Positions 1,858 through 10,600 of a stretch of 12,395 nucleotides of DNA are shown here, one piece after another. The stretch's first letter is position 1, and each line of letters opens with the position of its first letter. The DNA comes from Dehalococcoidales bacterium (GTDB lineage Bacteria; Chloroflexota; Dehalococcoidia; Dehalococcoidales; RBG-16-60-22). The translations under genes were made by a program, and so were the position numbers. The stretch lies in the NCBI GenBank assembly GCA_026416775.1, contig JAOAEN010000015.1, forward strand, positions 1 through 12,395, read 5' to 3'. Below the pieces are notes generated by a model. That model was given only the letters and a program-made list of their open reading frames with translations, made no database searches and had not been told where the DNA came from.

Positions 1858-1886
1858 TTGGCTTACTCCTTTTGTATGAGTACAAT
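1858..1886 (+). promoter_or_regulatory. Candidate sigma70-type promoter for the CARDB protein gene
   Basis: TTGGCT (1858-1863, 4 of 6 to TTGACA) and TACAAT (1881-1886, 5 of 6 to TATAAT) are separated by 17 bases. Transcription would start near 1893. That gives a short leader carrying a ribosome site at 1907-1912 and leaves the upstream ATG at 1876 outside the transcript. Found by eye only; there is no experimental support. Confidence 0.45.
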
Positions 1887-1906
1887 AATAGTAACCGTTT
1901 CCACGC

Positions 1907-1912
1907 GGAGAG
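1907..1912 (+). promoter_or_regulatory. Ribosome binding site selecting a TTG start
   Basis: GGAGAG lies five bases before the TTG at 1918. The in-frame ATG at 1876 and TTG at 1858 have no Shine-Dalgarno-like sequence before them. This site therefore favours 1918 as the start of the CARDB protein. Confidence 0.55.
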
Positions 1913-1917
1913 AACGA

Positions 1918-4900
1918 TTGCGGTACCTTTCTGCGCTCCTGAGGCTGTCCTGTATCTGCGCCGTCGCCGCCATCCTCGCCATCGTCACGGCGACCGGTGT
2001 GGTGATGGCGGAGTCCCCTGCCGACCTCGCCGTCCATGCCATCACACTGTCCCCGCCCTTCCCACCAATCAACAGCAACGTGACGGTTACCGTAACGGTA
2101 AAAAATCAGGGTGGTGCCACCGCTCCGTCATGTCAGGTAGCCTGTTACCTCGATGAAAGCCTTCTCGGGACGGCCGGCATTGCAGCGCTGTCCCCGGGGG
2201 CTACGGCAGGCGCCACCTTCACCTTCCGCGCCCAGGCAGGGACACATACCATCCGTGCCGTGGTAGACCCCGGCAATGCTGTCCCCGAGGCAGACGAGAC
2301 CAACAACAGTAAAAGCTTCATTTTCACCACCCTTGCCCCCGACCTCGTCGTGCAGGCAATCTCCCCGGCACCGGGCAGCCCTTCAAGGGGAGAGAGCGTT
2401 ACCATCTCTGTTACTGTTAAGAACCAGGGAACCAGCCGTGCGTCTGCCTCGGCGGTCCACCTCTACATTGACGGCAACTCCCGGGGCTTGCGCGACATTA
2501 CCCCCCTTGAGCCAGGCGCCACCTCCACGGTGACCTATATCTGGACGGCTCAGGCAGGCACACACACCATCCGCGCGGTCGCCGATGAGACCGACCTGAT
2601 AAATGAAGGCGATGAGACAAACAACGAGACCATCCTTTACCTCACCGCCCTTGCCCCCGACCTCATTGTTTCGAGCATAACCTGGTCACCGCAGAACCCG
2701 TCAAAGGACGATAACGTCACCTTTACTGCCACCATCAAGAACCAGGGACAGGGGCGCTCCGACGCCTGCCAGGTCGGCTATGCTGTCGGCGATGACTATC
2801 GATCCGTGCTCACCGTGGATGCCCTGGACCCCGGCAAGAGCAGCAACATCACCTTTAACTGGACAATGAGGTCGGAAACGGACGTCCCAATAAGCGTGGT
2901 CGTTGACCCGCTCAACATCGTCGTGGAAGGCGATGAGACAAACAACAGCCTTACCGTCAGCCTGTCACCCTCGCTCCCCGACCTCGTCGTCAGCAACATC
3001 ACCTGGAACCCCGGAAATCCTAGTGCCGGCGATAAAATCACCTTTACCGCGACGGTCAGGAACCAGGGCACCGGCAGGGCTACCGCAAGCCGCCTCAGCT
3101 TCGCCATAGGTAACGAGCCCGCCAGCTACGCGGATATCGCCGCCATCGAGGCCAGCAAGACCGCCTCGGCGACCTTCAGCTGGGTTGTGCCCGACGAGAG
3201 CACATACGGCATATGGGTCCTTGCTGATATTGATAACCGCGTCCGGGAAAGCAACGAGCGCAACAACTCCCTGTCACAGACGATCAGCGTCATCCTGCCG
3301 GACATTTCCATCAGCTACGTTTCATATGCGCCGCAGAACCCGCAGGCGGGCGAGACGGTCACCTTCACCGCCAACATCACCAACACCGGAAACGGCCGGG
3401 CAATGGGCTTCTACGTCGGGTACTATCTAGACGATAAGCTCCTCGGCACCGATTTCGTCACCGGGATTGCACCCGGAAGCAGCTCCGCCACGACGTACAC
3501 CTGGAAGGCAGAGGGCGGACGCCACACCTTCCGCATCAGCGCCGACCACGACGGGAAAGTTCGGGAAAGCAACGAGGACAACAATGACAGGTCGGTCCCC
3601 ATTACGGTAAGCACCCCCGACATCGCCGTGGGGGCAATCACCTGGACACCCGCCGAGATAAAGCCAGCCGACAGGATGACACTTGCCATCAAGATTGAAA
3701 ACCGCGGTGCCCAGGCTGCCGGGGCCTTCCGCATCGCCTACTATGTTGACGGGGAGGTGTCCGGCTACAGCGATATCGGCTACCTGAACGCAATGTCCGC
3801 GACCACGCTCCAGTTTATCTGGGAAGTGGCATCCGGGCACCATACCATCACGGTTACCGCCGATGCCGGCAACCAGATTGCCGAAATCGATGAAACGAAC
3901 AACTCCCGGACATTGCACATTCCCTTTGCTGATCTTGCTGTCACGGAAATCACGGGCATGCCACGCGAGGCCAGTTCCGGGCAGGATGTCACCTTTACCG
4001 CTACCATCCGGAACGTGGCAAGTGGCCCTTCACCAGCCAGCCAGGTCACCTTCTGTGTCGATGGCGAGCCTGCTTTCACAACCGACCTTACCCCGCTACC
4101 GGGTAATTCCTCCACCACGCTCACCTTCAGCTGGAAGGCGATCTACGGCACCCATGAGGTCGCCGTTTCCGTCGACAGCAACGACGTCATCATTGAACCC
4201 GATGAGACCAATAACGAAAAATCGCTCACCTTCACCACGCGCACACCCGACCTCACCATTGAAGATATTGCCTGGTCAATGAAAGACCCCCTGAGCAGCA
4301 GTGCCACCACGATCACCATAACCGTCAGCAACCGCGGCGACGGTACCGCGCGGAATGTCGGGCTTGAGTGGTCGATCAACCGTGCCTCACCGGAAAGCGT
4401 GGAAATCCCCGAGCTCCTCCCCGGTGAATCCTACACGCTCAGCCGGGAGACAATGCTCAAGGGAGATAGCCACACCATCACCGCCACCGTTGACCCCGCG
4501 AACGGTCTTGTCGAACTTGATGAGACCAATAACGAGAAGACGATTACCTTCTCCACGCTCGTCCCCGACATTGCCATCAAGGTACTGCTCTCCCCGTCAC
4601 AGGCGGGCGCCGCGGAAGAAGTCCCCATCGTCGTCAGCGTGGAAAACCGGGGCAGGGTAAAATCACCGGCAACCACTCTCGTCCTCTATATCGACGGGGA
4701 GCCGATAGTCACCAAGGAAATCCCCACACTCGGCATCGGCGCCGTGGCAAGCAGCGACCTCACCTGGCAGGCTACCGCCGGAGAACATGAGATAACCGTC
4801 CGCGCCGACCCCGAGGGGCTTATTGAGGAAAGCAATAAGGACAACAACGCAAGGTCAGCCACCATCTCCGTCAGCACGTCTCCGCCCGAGACCCGCCCCA

Positions 4901-5052
4901 GGGAAGTGAAAAAGGCAGCCACCCCGCCGACAACCCCCCGCCGCGGAACCGCTGGCTTCCTCGGCAAATACTGGTGGTCAATAGCGGTTATCGCTCTTGT
5001 CCTCGGCGGCACCACCGTCTTTATGGTGCTGCGCTCGCTCAAAAAGAAATAG
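1918..5052 (+). CDS. Secreted, C-terminally anchored protein with nine CARDB repeats
   Basis: Large exported adhesin-like protein of 1044 residues from the TTG start at 1918 (1058 if ATG 1876 is used). Residues 1-31 form a signal peptide: short basic start, hydrophobic core CAVAAILAIVTATGVV, likely cleavage after VMA. Nine immunoglobulin-like repeats of about 105 residues follow. Each opens with a PDLxV-type strand, has a central VTxTVKNQG-like strand, and ends with DETNN or a variant; these are hallmarks of CARDB (cell adhesion related domain in bacteria). A Pro/Thr/Arg-rich linker, a membrane helix (WSIAVIALVLGGTTVFMVL) and a basic RSLKKK tail close the protein, so the repeats should face outward on a membrane anchor. 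No enzyme domain is visible. CARDB modules are thought to serve in adhesion or as spacers; the ligand is unknown. It has its own promoter and is probably not part of the nuo operon. Confidence 0.88.
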   Translation: MRYLSALLRLSCICAVAAILAIVTATGVVMAESPADLAVHAITLSPPFPPINSNVTVTVTVKNQGGATAPSCQVACYLDESLLGTAGIAALSPGATAGATFTFRAQAGTHTIRAVVDPGNAVPEADETNNSKSFIFTTLAPDLVVQAISPAPGSPSRGESVTISVTVKNQGTSRASASAVHLYIDGNSRGLRDITPLEPGATSTVTYIWTAQAGTHTIRAVADETDLINEGDETNNETILYLTALAPDLIVSSITWSPQNPSKDDNVTFTATIKNQGQGRSDACQVGYAVGDDYRSVLTVDALDPGKSSNITFNWTMRSETDVPISVVVDPLNIVVEGDETNNSLTVSLSPSLPDLVVSNITWNPGNPSAGDKITFTATVRNQGTGRATASRLSFAIGNEPASYADIAAIEASKTASATFSWVVPDESTYGIWVLADIDNRVRESNERNNSLSQTISVILPDISISYVSYAPQNPQAGETVTFTANITNTGNGRAMGFYVGYYLDDKLLGTDFVTGIAPGSSSATTYTWKAEGGRHTFRISADHDGKVRESNEDNNDRSVPITVSTPDIAVGAITWTPAEIKPADRMTLAIKIENRGAQAAGAFRIAYYVDGEVSGYSDIGYLNAMSATTLQFIWEVASGHHTITVTADAGNQIAEIDETNNSRTLHIPFADLAVTEITGMPREASSGQDVTFTATIRNVASGPSPASQVTFCVDGEPAFTTDLTPLPGNSSTTLTFSWKAIYGTHEVAVSVDSNDVIIEPDETNNEKSLTFTTRTPDLTIEDIAWSMKDPLSSSATTITITVSNRGDGTARNVGLEWSINRASPESVEIPELLPGESYTLSRETMLKGDSHTITATVDPANGLVELDETNNEKTITFSTLVPDIAIKVLLSPSQAGAAEEVPIVVSVENRGRVKSPATTLVLYIDGEPIVTKEIPTLGIGAVASSDLTWQATAGEHEITVRADPEGLIEESNKDNNARSATISVSTSPPETRPREVKKAATPPTTPRRGTAGFLGKYWWSIAVIALVLGGTTVFMVLRSLKKK
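2014..4877 (+). repeat. Nine tandem CARDB coding repeats of about 315 bp
   Basis: The repeats begin near 2014, 2335, 2656, 2974, 3295, 3613, 3928, 4243 and 4561. They are clear at protein level (PDL-type opening, NQG/NRG turn, DETNN close) but well diverged in DNA. Short shared DNA phrases remain around the DETNN codons. Repeats 4, 5 and 9 end with NERNN, NEDNN and NKDNN instead of DETNN. Divergence this deep suggests old duplications held by selection. Confidence 0.85.
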
Positions 5053-5574: not shown

Positions 5575-6312
5575 CTACCCGCTGATCTTCCCGAATTTTT
5601 CTTCCAGCGCCGCCCGGTCAAATATCTTGCCGGTGACTTCCTCGGGCTTGCATGCGGCAAGCATAGCGGTGTACTTCTGCCAGATGATGGGGTCTTCAAA
5701 GTCGCTCGTGTCGCGCCCCTCCATGAACCCCAGCACCACCTCCGTCTTCACGAAATAGGGACGGATGCAGGTGATGGCGATCCCCGGCTCACGCCGCATC
5801 TCGCGGGCAAGCCCCATCGTGAAGCGCTCCACACCCGCCTTGGTCACCCCGTAGGCGATGTTCATACGTATCTGGTGCGCCAGGATTGAGGAGACATTAA
5901 TGACCATCCCGCTCTTGCGCTCCAGCATATGGGGCAGCACCGCCTTGGTGCAGAGGAAAACACCATCAAGATTCACCGAAAGGATGAGCCGCCAGCGCTT
6001 GTAGGTCATCTGGACGAAGGAGTCCGGCGAGGTGACACCGGCATTGTTGACCAGCACGTGGATCCTGCCGAAGACCCTCTCCGCTTCATCAGCGGCGCGG
6101 ACGTAGTCATCCCGGTCGGTAACATCAAGCTGGACGGGATGCACCGGTTTGCCCAGCGGCTTGAAATACGCCATTGCCTCATCAAGGGCGTGCTGGCGCT
6201 TGTCCGCAATGACCACCTTCATGCCGTACTTGACGAATGCCTTGGCAATACCCAGCCCGATACCGCTGGCACCACCGGTAATGAAGGCAACCTTTCCTTC
6301 CAGGTCTTTCAT
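5575..6312 (-). CDS. SDR-family NAD-dependent oxidoreductase
   Basis: A 245-residue classical short-chain dehydrogenase/reductase of normal length. The cofactor motif TGGASGIG is at 12-19, Asp37 ends the second strand (known in the family to favour NAD over NADP), and NNAG is at 89-92 with structural Asn114. The catalytic set is Ser141/142, Tyr154 and Lys158 (YGVTK). The start is the ATG at 6312, with GAGGAGG four bases upstream; a longer in-frame reading to 6435 would add 41 residues that do not look like SDR and would overlap the upstream gene. It lies 26 bases after the selenoprotein gene and just before the lipoprotein gene, in one operon. It likely oxidises an alcohol or reduces a ketone; the substrate cannot be told. 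Confidence 0.93.
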   Translation of the reverse strand: MKDLEGKVAFITGGASGIGLGIAKAFVKYGMKVVIADKRQHALDEAMAYFKPLGKPVHPVQLDVTDRDDYVRAADEAERVFGRIHVLVNNAGVTSPDSFVQMTYKRWRLILSVNLDGVFLCTKAVLPHMLERKSGMVINVSSILAHQIRMNIAYGVTKAGVERFTMGLAREMRREPGIAITCIRPYFVKTEVVLGFMEGRDTSDFEDPIIWQKYTAMLAACKPEEVTGKIFDRAALEEKFGKISG

Positions 6313-6338: not shown

Positions 6339-8030
6339 TCAGTGGGAGATCCCGCAGGAGCCGTCCTTGCACATGACCGGCACTGGCATGCGCAGGGGTC
6401 TGGGGTCTTTCCTCACGCCGGATTTCGGTATCCACGGGTCAATGGACACCGTCTGGAAATAGGAGTAATCGGTGCAGAGGTACAGCGGGTTCATCTCCCC
6501 GCCCACAACGACGAAGTTCACCATGCCGGGGCGCTTGAAGCGCGGGTTCATCTCGTCCACCAGCGACTCGGCGAGCTTCTCGGGGTCATCCCAGCCCTCT
6601 TTCTTGAGGTTCTTGGCGACCAGCGGGTCGACGACGAAGGTGAACGACCCGCCGAACGGACTCATCCTCTTCATGGTGTCGATGAGCTTCTGCCCGGGTC
6701 CCATGCCGCCGGTGAGGATGCTCCAGCCGCGGAAGAGGCTCACCGTGTTCTCGTTCGGCTTATAGCCCTTGCGCACGTGGAAGGGTGCCCAGACGGAAAG
6801 CTCCTCGTTTTCCCCGCAGCACATGTTGTTGTAGTTGATGTTGTTGCCGGTGCTTGCCGTGAAGGTGATGCCGGGACGCACATCGCCGAAGTTGATGCTC
6901 ATGAGCGTCCAGGCGCGCCCGATGACGGAGTTGGCGTAGTTCACCGGGCTTAAGGCACCCAGCCCGCAGTTCATGCCGATCTCGTTGCGGATGGGTCCGT
7001 TGACCACCATCATGCTGCCCCAGGAGGTCGTGGAGCTGGGCATGGAAGGTCGCCCCGAAGCGGCAAGGGCAAGGATGACCGGGAAGTGCTCCGGTCTTGC
7101 CCCCGCCATGACGGCGATGACGGCGACCTTCTCCACGGTGTATTTCAGCCTCTCCTCGTGGGTGGTGACCGACATCATCCCGACGACCTCGTCCGGGGCG
7201 TGGTCGGTACCGGTGAGCATCTCGGCGACGCGCTCCTCGGTGGGGAGCACTATCGGTAGCCCGTCGGTCCAGCCGTTTTCCAGGAAGAGGCGGTGCAAAT
7301 TCTCCTCAGTGTCCGGGGGCAGCAATCGCGGGTGCTCGGGACGCTTTTCAATCCTGGGGTGTTTTTCTTCCTCGGTGAGCGGTTGCGTCAGCGCCATGAT
7401 GATCTCCTGCGTGAGGGGCACGCCGGTGACGGGGTCGTTACCCTGGATGTAGCCCCGTATCGTCTCGCGGGAGACCCAGCCGACGGGGTAGGGTGGGAAG
7501 CTCCAGCGCAGGTACATGCCATGGGTACGGCTGTCGCGCTGGACGTATTCCGCAAAGCGGGCGGTAACGATCGGCGCGGTGGGCACGCCGTAGTCGTGCT
7601 CAAGTCTTCTGGCAAACTCGGCGATACTCGCCGAACAGCCGTCTCAGCCACCCACACCGAGGATGGCGGCATCCCCGTTTGCCTTGATCTCCGCCCATAG
7701 CTCGGGCTCATCGGTGAACATGCTGGTCTTCTTGTTACGCAGCACTGTCTTTACGCCCGGCATGTTGCGCCTGAACCAGTCCTGGAGTTCTTCCATGAAC
7801 TCGAGGCTGCCGGCAAAGCCGGTGCTGACGAGGTAAACTGTCTTGCCCTCAAGGCTGTCCAGACGCGGTGCCATCTGGAGGTTGGCGAACTCGGCAACGC
7901 TTGCCCGTGGCTGGTTGACCGGGTCGTGGATTGCCCAGGGCATGGTATCGGGGTCAAGCCCACGCCCGTAAATCCCGGAGGGCTGCCCCCGCGGGTCCAG
8001 AACCTGAAGTCTCTTCGTGACTTTGCCCAT
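6339..8030 (-). CDS. Probable selenoprotein: UGSC-like domain fused to an uncharacterised domain
   Basis: Two minus-strand reading frames (8030-7647 and 7643-6339) lie in the same phase, separated only by a TGA at 7644-7646. Read as selenocysteine they give one 563-residue protein with Sec129 in GVGG-U-D-G-C-S, a UxxC redox-type motif. Residues about 50-225 (MAPRLDSLEGKTV, then a strand ending at the Sec site, then GVPTAPIVTARFAEY) resemble the UGSC family of (seleno)proteins. A linker at 226-240 leads to a second domain with NGWTDGLPIV, VEKVAVIAVMAGARPEHFPV and NGPIRNEIGMNCGLGAL. This is a widespread uncharacterised family that I recall encoded beside UGSC genes. The C-terminus has CKDGSC. 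The ATG at 8030 has AAAGGAG three bases upstream; the ATG at 8066 has no such site and lies upstream of the predicted transcription start. First gene of the operon with the SDR and lipoprotein. A true nonsense mutation is the alternative. The enzymatic role is unknown. Confidence 0.8.
7616..7636 (-). promoter_or_regulatory. Candidate bacterial SECIS hairpin
   Basis: In the mRNA, seven bases after the UGA, GUUCGGCGA (7636-7628) pairs with UCGCCGAGU (7624-7616) around the loop GUA (7627-7625). The stem has nine pairs: seven Watson-Crick and two G-U at the base. The loop begins 16 bases after the UGA and its first base is G. This matches the known bacterial SECIS pattern: stem within the coding region, small apical loop, G among its first two bases, and a UGA-to-loop distance of at least about 16. 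SelB binding is inferred. Confidence 0.7.
7644..7646 (-). other. In-frame UGA, probable selenocysteine codon
   Basis: The codon lies between Gly128 and Asp130 of the fused reading frame, three residues before Cys132. Homology-like sequence continues in the same frame on both sides with no frame change. UGA also ends nuoN and the DUF169 gene, so it is not a generally reassigned sense codon. No selA, selB, selC or selD gene is present in the window to confirm decoding. Confidence 0.75.
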
Positions 8031-8069
8031 ACGCTCCTTTGCGATATGTCGTAATATATTTTTCATACT

Positions 8070-8174: not shown

Positions 8175-8948
8175 ATGGAAGGTCACTCGTTGTACCGGAG
8201 GCTCGGTCGCGAGCTGGAGAGGCTTCTTATCCTGAGGACTTCGCCGCTGGCCGTGAGGCTCGTCAGGGATGCTTCGGAAATACCCCGCGATGCCCTGCGT
8301 CCCCGCCGCGATGGCGGCTACCACCTTTCCCAGTGTCAGGCTTTTGCCCTCTCACGGCGCGGACGCCGTACCGTCGCCATGCTTAAGGAAGACCACTGGT
8401 GCTGGGCTCCGCTCATCGGTCTCGGGCTGGTGGAGCCGGAGCCGGCGCTGGGACTGCCGGAGACCGGCGAGCAGGTGCGGATGCTGCCGCGTCTTGAAAG
8501 GGGGAAGTATCTGGGCGTTGTCTCCGCGCCCCTGCGTGAGGCGGGGTTTGTGCCCGATGTGGTCATCATTTACGCCAACCCCGCGCAGGTGCGCAGTCTG
8601 CTGCTTACCGTCAAGTACGACGAGGGTGCCGCGATCGGCAACCGGCTTGACCCGATAAACTCGTGCGTCTATGCCATCGTGGACGTCCTAGAGACGGGAG
8701 AGTACCGCGTCCTTGTCCCGTGTGCCGGTGAATACGCGCGGGCGGCACCCGAGGAGCATGAGCTTATCTTTGCCCTGCCGCCGGTAAAGCTGGAAAGGCT
8801 TTTGTCCGGTCTTAGCCGGGCGGAGGAGTCCGGCGGGGGCTATGCCCGCTTCGGTTTTGAGATGCGTCCCGATTTTCCCCGCCCCGATTTCTACCGCCGG
8901 CTTTTTGCCACCTGGGGGCTTGACGTGGAACCGCAACCTGGCAGGTGA
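8175..8948 (+). CDS. DUF169 family protein
   Basis: A 257-residue soluble protein. It resembles the DUF169 family (COG2043, uncharacterised): an N-terminal helix with the SPLAVRLVRD stretch, Cys54 in LSQCQAFALSRRG, Cys76 near HWCWAPLIGLGLVE, then KYLGVVSAPL, VVIIYANPAQVRSLLL and C183 in VLVPCAGEYA. Several conserved cysteines suggest metal or redox chemistry, but no function is established. The ATG at 8175 is preceded by a purine-rich GAGGGGGAAGAG run; an upstream in-frame ATG at 8070 lacks a ribosome site and would add a non-family segment rich in Cys and Lys. The gene diverges from the selenoprotein operon and is followed 26 bases later by the alcohol dehydrogenase, so those two are probably co-transcribed. 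Confidence 0.85.
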   Translation: MEGHSLYRRLGRELERLLILRTSPLAVRLVRDASEIPRDALRPRRDGGYHLSQCQAFALSRRGRRTVAMLKEDHWCWAPLIGLGLVEPEPALGLPETGEQVRMLPRLERGKYLGVVSAPLREAGFVPDVVIIYANPAQVRSLLLTVKYDEGAAIGNRLDPINSCVYAIVDVLETGEYRVLVPCAGEYARAAPEEHELIFALPPVKLERLLSGLSRAEESGGGYARFGFEMRPDFPRPDFYRRLFATWGLDVEPQPGR

Positions 8949-8974
8949 AAGGTGTCCCGCAGGAGGTGCCCGCG

Positions 8975-10043
8975 ATGAAGGCGATGGTCTTGAAGGAACT
9001 CTGTGAGGTCATGGTGCCGGGGAAAGCCTACCGGGGGAGTCTTCCCCTGAAGGCGGAACCCCTTGAGCTTGCCGAGCTGCCGGTGCCCCAGCCGGGGAGG
9101 GGGGAGGTCCTGATCAGGGTCCTTGCCTGTGGCATCTGCCGCACGGAGCTTGACCAGATTGAAGGAAGGATCAGCCCGCCCCGTCTCCCCGTGGTCCCGG
9201 GGGCACCAGCCGGTGGGGGTGGTGGAGGCGTTGGGTGAGGGGGTGGGCCGCCTCAGGCGTGGCGACACAGTCGGGGTCTGCTGGATTTACCATGCCTGCG
9301 GTAAGTGCGAGTTCTGCCGGCGCGGTCTGGAAAACCTCTGTGCGGACTTTCGGGCAACCGGCTGCCATGCCGATGGTGGCTACGCGGAATACATGGTTGT
9401 CTCCGAAAGTTTTGCCTACAGGATACCTCCTGCATTCCGTGACCCCGTTTTTGCTGCCCCGCTCATGTGCTCGGGCGTGGTTGGCTTCCGCTCGCTCAAA
9501 CTTACCGGGATGGAGGATGGCTTGACGCTCGGCCTCTACGGCTTTGGTGCGGCAAACCATCTGGTCATCCAGATGGCGAATTTCCTTTATCCCCGTTCCA
9601 GGAAGTTCGTTTTCAGCCGTAATCCGGTGGAGCGTGAGCTTGCGTTATCACTCGGGGCAGACTGGGCGGGCGGCATTGACGAAAAAAGCCCCGAAGCGCT
9701 TGACTGCGCCATCGATACCACACCCGCCTGGCAGCCCGTATTGCGGGCACTTGAGAACCTGAAGAAAGGGGGCAGGCTTGTCCTCAACCTCATCCGCAAG
9801 GAGGACGCAGATAGACAGACCCTGGTTGCGCTGGACTATCCGAAGCACCTCTGGTGGGAGAAGGAAATCAAGACCGTCGCCAACGTCACGCGGAGGGATG
9901 CCGAAGAGTTCCTTGAGCTTGCCGCACGGGCAGGGATAAAGCCCGAGGTGCAGGTTTTTGCCCTTGAGGATGCGAACGAAGCACTCGTGGAGATGAAGAG
10001 CGGTAAGATCCGCGGGGCCAAGGTGCTCAGAATATCTTGGTAG
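8975..10043 (+). CDS. Zinc-dependent alcohol dehydrogenase, frameshifted in this sequence
   Basis: Medium-chain zinc alcohol dehydrogenase of about 355 residues if one base is removed from the G run at 9199-9203. The first frame carries Cys55 (CGICRTELD, catalytic zinc ligand) and runs to VVPG; the second resumes with HQPVGVVEALGEGVG, where His77 is the next catalytic ligand. The four structural zinc cysteines are 108, 111, 114 and 122 (CGKCEFCRRGLENLC). PLMCSG holds the third catalytic Cys, and YGFGAANHLVIQ is the NAD-binding glycine motif. The site reads GHQ where many members have GHE. The ATG at 8975 has AGGAGG eight bases upstream; a GTG at 8945 overlapping the DUF169 stop is possible but less likely. 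As written, translation ends at a TGA at 9236-9238, after 87 residues. All residues outside the shift look intact, so a sequencing error or a very recent mutation is likely. Confidence 0.85.
9199..9203 (+). other. G5 run with apparent +1 frameshift
   Basis: The expected reading GTG-GTC-CCG-GGG-CAC-CAG (VVPGHQ) needs four G, but five are present. Downstream codons continue the dehydrogenase in the shifted frame without further damage. The cause may be an assembly or sequencing error in a homopolymer, phase variation, or an early pseudogene. Confidence 0.8.
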
Positions 10044-10082: not shown

Positions 10083-10117
10083 AGGTGTCAATCTGGCATT
10101 TAGAAGGAGGACGAGCG

Positions 10118-10600
10118 ATGGGCGAAAAGGACATGCCGCAGGAAAAGATCCCGGAGACCAGGCCACCGATCAAGAAGTACGAGAAATACGTTCTGCGCGA
10201 TTCCTACAAACTCTTCTACCAGAAGGACTCGTTTCTGGCCACCCCCACGATGATGGAGGGTCTTGATTCCATCTTCACCATGCAGAGCATCGTGGCGCCG
10301 CTGGTCATGGCACCCAAGCCGCACAAGCACGATTTCCCGCAGGTGCTTGCCTTTATCAGCAGTGATGCGATGAACATCCACAACTTCGGGGCACTCATTG
10401 AGCTGCATCTCGGCGAGGGTGCCGACGAGGAGCAGTACATGATTACCACCAATACCCTGATTGCCATCCCGGCGGGGCTTTACCACTGCCCGATCATCGT
10501 GCACAGGGTGGACGTGGCTTTCTGGTTCGTTGAATTCATGCTCACCGGGGGCAAGAAATACGAGAAGATCTTTACCGACGGCACAAGCTCACCCCGGTAG
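10118..10600 (+). CDS. Cupin-like small protein
   Basis: A 160-residue soluble protein. The start is fixed by AAGGAGG seven bases before the ATG at 10118. The centre reads KPHKHDFPQVLAFI (His69, His71, Gln75) and later IPAGLYHCPI (Pro118, Gly120, His123). This resembles the two cupin motifs HxH-x3-E and PxG-x2-H, with Gln in place of the usual Glu, so a metal site of three His and one Gln is possible. Between them NFGALIELHLGEG and EEQYMITTNTL look like beta strands. The first 40 residues are charged and probably lie outside the barrel. I cannot name a substrate; it could be a dioxygenase-like enzyme, an isomerase or a non-catalytic binding protein. It has its own promoter and converges with the IclR-type gene. 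Confidence 0.8.
   Translation: MGEKDMPQEKIPETRPPIKKYEKYVLRDSYKLFYQKDSFLATPTMMEGLDSIFTMQSIVAPLVMAPKPHKHDFPQVLAFISSDAMNIHNFGALIELHLGEGADEEQYMITTNTLIAIPAGLYHCPIIVHRVDVAFWFVEFMLTGGKKYEKIFTDGTSSPR

Follow-up and report, generated by a model that had tools for sequence, protein, structure and literature searches.

According to the excerpted text of the 2008 GOS survey (PMC2398784), UGSC-containing selenoproteins form one of the major families. The same excerpts note a UGSC/Unknown_1 fusion (Figure S1A) and suggest a thioredoxin-like fold for UGSC proteins. A review of 2026 lists the family, with UGSC as its motif, among selenoproteins whose function is largely uncharacterised. Here we analyse a member of this family in a bacterial draft genome, where two apparent genes are very probably one, because the internal stop would be read as selenocysteine.

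The locus and its reading frame

The window, the whole stretch of 12,395 nucleotides analysed here, comes from a draft genome of 1.46 Mb (347 contigs, 86.4% complete), whose closest named relatives among the matches listed are Dehalococcoidales of Chloroflexi. On the minus strand, a frame runs from ATG 8030, preceded by a Shine-Dalgarno-like AAAGGAG (8034..8040), to a TGA stop at 6341-6339. The sole interruption is the TGA at 7646-7644. Read through, the gene (6339..8030) is predicted to encode 563 residues with Sec129 (7644..7646) in the context GVGG-U-DGC-S, and the codon of Cys132, the second UxxC residue, lies at 7635..7637.

A sequence-only reading of this DNA had reported two frames divided by the TGA alone at GVGG-U-DGCS, with residue 129 at the TGA and Cys at +3. 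It had also described a hairpin of nine pairs, here placed at 7636-7616, that begins 7 bases past the TGA, with the loop GUA after 16 bases, G first. Both descriptions were exact on re-reading; what they lacked was the minus strand and the continuation of the gene to 6339.

Family assignment and homologues

The read-through protein matches the Pfam UGSC model PF24696 with 74.3 bits, above the cut-off of 25, and the NCBIfam equivalog NF041046 (UGSC_fam) with 48.6 bits, below the cut-off of 125. The N-terminal half alone matched no NCBIfam family. The motif is U-D-G-C, which satisfies UxxC; the literal U-G-S-C is absent. The earlier identification of the UxxC site with that of UGSC proteins, with Asp-Gly between Sec and Cys, is thus correct by Pfam, whereas the link does not extend to the narrower NCBI model (48.6 of 125 bits). 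On these profile scores the protein is filed under Pfam UGSC, not under NF041046.

Two protein searches were made. In the first, the 7997 candidates with the most shared words were scored; 119 of the best 120 listed proteins, the window's own among them, have at most 430 residues, and P0015 alone is full length. Its Cys may be a Sec displayed as C, since its DNA relatives (76-78%) carry TGA. In the second search, with the UGSC region as the query, 18 of the best 120 of 134 proteins span the Sec site. At the protein level they have Cys (13), Leu (4) or Arg (1) at the site, and every one of the 18 retains the second Cys. The latter is invariant in 19 alignment rows (C144 in the numbering of P0002). 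Separately, Thr, Met or Leu stands in place of Sec in a number of UGSC relatives (L033/L055, L165, L110, P0127, P0128, P0134, P0136), and those with Leu retain the second Cys.

Plain open reading frames would give two proteins, one of 128 residues ending at the TGA and a second starting at GTG 7586, and the short lengths of 119 of the best 120 listed proteins, the window's own included, agree with such a division. However, by eye no Shine-Dalgarno site is evident at GTG 7586. Moreover, the residues between the TGA and this GTG are fixed while their codons vary: in 26 genes with the UDGC motif, Arg at +12 is found in all 26 with six codons and Glu at +15 in all 26 with two. Finally, the UGSC domain crosses the TGA, and site-spanning homologues with Cys exist. 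We consider two separate proteins very unlikely and favour a single read-through product.

Conservation of the in-frame TGA

A survey of 301 Chloroflexota genomes, our own included, yielded 71 UGSC matches in 32 genomes. Exactly one TGA is present in 68 of the 71; two of the remaining three span the site without TGA, and one is a fragment ending before the site. The genome studied has three UGSC copies with one TGA apiece, in the motifs UDGC (the gene described here), UPGC (L050) and UGSC (L051). When phylum loci are pooled with loci of the genome collection, 88 of the 92 rows printed (repeats counted) have U at the site, and the other four have Leu, Met and, for one gene listed twice, Thr. 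By their record titles, these loci come from Chloroflexi, Acidobacteria, Actinobacteria, Firmicutes, Deltaproteobacteria, Rokubacteria and Rhodospirillaceae. By a hand count of the printed rows, one TGA is found in 31 of 32 site-spanning rows of the phylum sample, and in the class sample (20 site-spanning rows, also counted by hand) there are 17 rows with one TGA, two with two and one with none. Position 129 of homologues had been named earlier as the place to look for Cys or Sec, and indeed TGA or Cys predominates there, the exceptions being four Leu and one Arg among the 18 proteins and paralogues with Thr or Met. In named Actinomadura strains (L115, L118, L120, L121) the TGA forms adjoin an IclR-type regulator; the window also has a nearby IclR gene.

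The same TGA occurs in all 26 UDGC genes, the window's included, in records from several phyla. In a draft assembly of 347 contigs one could suspect a pseudogene or a sequencing error, with the TGA standing for a sense codon. However, the recurrence of this TGA in 25 other UDGC genes of several phyla, followed by frozen codons, makes such an origin extremely improbable. Sequencing error, one of the cases in which the sequence-only reading would have been wrong, is excluded because the TGA recurs.

Reading through TGA would also be expected if the codon were reassigned throughout the genome, for example to Trp or Gly. However, the gene itself, NuoN and DUF169 all terminate in TGA, the 904-codon TGA-open stretch around the gene contains 12 TGAs, and the residues that homologues show at the site are Cys, Leu and Arg, with neither Trp nor Gly among them. 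The probability of reassignment is accordingly negligible, and insertion of selenocysteine is the preferred reading of the codon.

The SECIS hairpin

The candidate SECIS hairpin (7616..7636, minus strand) has nine pairs and the loop GUA at 7627-7625. Its stability in the window is ordinary, with z of -0.48 and 27% of 300 synonymous-codon shuffles at least as stable; over 72 genes the mean z is -0.96. The SECIS search proposed earlier gave no SECIS match in Rfam, whereas comparison across relatives was positive.

Synonymous codon choice at +1 to +8 past the TGA is frozen in the 26 UDGC genes (z from 3.5 to 12.5), and returns to ordinary values at +9 to +11 (z from 0.1 to 1.4). Within the frozen stretch, AGT is used in 26 of 26 genes (expected 3.8) and TCG in 17 of 18 (expected 2.2). 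Control codons in the same genes (n=106) have a mean z of 1.12, a standard deviation of 1.20 and a largest value of 5.3. Because the genes are related, their own control codons are a fair yardstick. Among 24 UGSC genes, AGT is used at +7 in 14 of 14 cases against 1.4 expected (z 11.2, with control codons no higher than 3.3). The 25 USTC genes have z from 4.9 to 6.2 at +4 to +9; this group is weaker because its control codons reach 5.5. The three groups were chosen by hand, and their rows are related, not independent. Outside the hairpin, the codon at +29 past the TGA is Arg CGT in 12 of 26 UDGC genes against 3.2 expected (z 5.3), which exceeds some hairpin codons.

The stem is conserved as well. 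In the UDGC genes 91.5% of pair cells are paired, against at most 50% when the stem is slid, and four pairs have changes on both sides. One pair, 12-30, is broken in 13 of 26 genes. Judged by codon freezing and stem co-variation across the UDGC genes, the predicted hairpin is a genuine SECIS, well beyond chance.

Selenocysteine machinery

Genes selA, selB and selD are present above the cut-off in the same genome, and selA and selB adjoin. The selD gene itself (L059, about 3754-4680) carries a TGA in frame, at GAGUACK. No selC turned up in the 86.4%-complete assembly, whether with a model, with ARAGORN on the contigs inspected or with the DNA of a relative, the last search having no positive control. 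ARAGORN named a tRNA-SeC in eight of nine relatives; in the ninth (the genome of L090) the best match is a serine tRNA. Of the four genes that the sequence-only reading suggested looking for, selA, selB and selD were thus recovered, and selC was not, in an incomplete assembly.

With SelA calls judged from best E-values, SelA is above the cut-off in 31 of 32 genomes with UGSC matches against 212 of 269 others, the latter number following from the count of UGSC genomes (Fisher p 0.007). The exception, G217, has the TGA form with SelA not above the cut-off. Among genomes behind other relatives, SelA is above the cut-off in 22 of the 22 searched.

With the ribosome at the TGA (7646-7644), SelB carrying Sec-tRNA would bind the hairpin just downstream, and selenocysteine would be inserted. 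From the comparison of relatives and the known working of bacterial SECIS elements, insertion at this codon almost certainly takes place. For the explanation as a whole, one two-domain UGSC-family selenoprotein made from a read-through gene, our rough probability is 0.93.

Protein structure and neighbouring genes

The structure model of the read-through protein has pLDDT of 91.8 and pTM of 0.91. Three parts can be distinguished, all encoded on the minus strand. Firstly, the UGSC domain (residues 40-192, 7455..7913) has a predicted Rossmann-like fold, in which Sec129 is placed between the strand 121-127 and the helix 130-147. As modelled, this domain is not obviously of the thioredoxin-like fold suggested in 2008. 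Secondly, a C-terminal domain of about 320 residues (about residues 222-540, 6411..7367) belongs to no Pfam family; this part was modelled at pLDDT of 86.4, and among solved structures it had no useful match. Thirdly, there is a CX4C tail, CKDGSC (residues 554-559, 6354..6371), with low model confidence and probably flexible. The tail is present in 115 of the best 120 listed proteins, the window's own included, most commonly as CKDGSCG (92 of 120), and is missing in relatives ending in Trp-Arg, for example L108 and L022.

In the model, the Rossmann-like UGSC domain would present Sec129 at the start of the helix, with Cys132 as the resolving partner, and a Sec-S redox pair is therefore the probable active centre. 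The Sec residues of glycine and proline reductase selenoproteins act by metal binding or by forming an adduct with the substrate. One possibility is that Sec129 acts in the same way, with no Sec-Cys thiol redox chemistry. The Rossmann-like rather than clearly thioredoxin-like model fits this, as do the paralogues that retain the protein with neither Sec nor Cys at the site; UxxC is also found in PrdB, according to excerpts of PMC1088965. However, the second Cys is invariant in 19 rows, and the common CX4C tail fits dithiol chemistry, so we regard such a role as unlikely and retain the Sec-S redox pair as the probable active centre.

A short-chain dehydrogenase (SDR) gene (5575..6312, minus strand), with GAGGAGG before its ATG, starts 26 bases downstream of the selenoprotein gene and is a probable operon partner. 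Of 64 loci, 13 have an SDR relative, with one place counted twice; this neighbourhood is weak evidence, because SDRs are common.

Other genes nearby were noted as well. A small protein at 10085-10600, cupin-like by eye and without a Pfam match, has relatives at L050 6131-6652 and L051 4055, close to the other two UGSC copies of the genome. Two of the three UGSC copies have a DUF169 gene nearby. A zinc alcohol dehydrogenase gene (8945-10043) appears split into ORFs 8945-9238 and 9123-10043, with the break near 9190-9210, which appears to be a draft error or a broken gene. The 1064-residue ORF at 1858-5052 has repeated units and, at the C-terminal end, a hydrophobic stretch; by eye it encodes a surface protein.

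A tentative scheme can be drawn for the remaining parts. The C-terminal domain may be where the substrate is held, and reduction of the selenylsulfide after each turnover may fall to the flexible CKDGSC tail; taken jointly, these two roles are plausible and somewhat short of an even chance. The downstream SDR would handle the same metabolite, for which we see the odds as evenly balanced. In glycine and proline reductases selenylsulfide recycling is done by separate partner proteins. A self-contained Sec reductase of new architecture, with a UGSC Sec-Cys centre, a C-terminal substrate-binding fold that lacks close relatives among solved structures, and CX4C recycling within the chain, is a speculative and rather doubtful extension of this scheme.

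Comparison with known systems

Division of its gene at the TGA has kept a widespread selenoprotein subfamily hidden, and 119 of the best 120 listed proteins are short entries. Read as one, the two halves reveal how the domains are ordered, where the active site lies and which gene may be an operon partner, and function therefore becomes testable. Codon freezing provides a simple test for SECIS elements in coding regions, where folding of single sequences says little.

Presumably the surroundings of the motif resemble those in PrdB and GrdB, of D-proline and glycine reductase, respectively. The Pfam model of GrdB gave no match in 61 members with hmmscan up to E 10, where filters drop weak hits. 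UxxC is shared with PrdB of D-proline reductase, as stated in the excerpted text of PMC1088965. With the UGSC family the protein shares the Pfam domain above the cut-off, Sec in UxxC, TGA in most relatives and a proposed redox role. In contrast to that family, it has UDGC in place of UGSC, scores below the cut-off of NF041046, and carries the fused domain of about 320 residues and the CX4C tail. The UGSC/Unknown_1 fusion of the GOS survey (PMC2398784) also combines UGSC with an unnamed conserved domain. The selenoprotein family is thus already described, and the additions made here are the anatomy of the UDGC form, the codon-level evidence for its SECIS element, and the tail.
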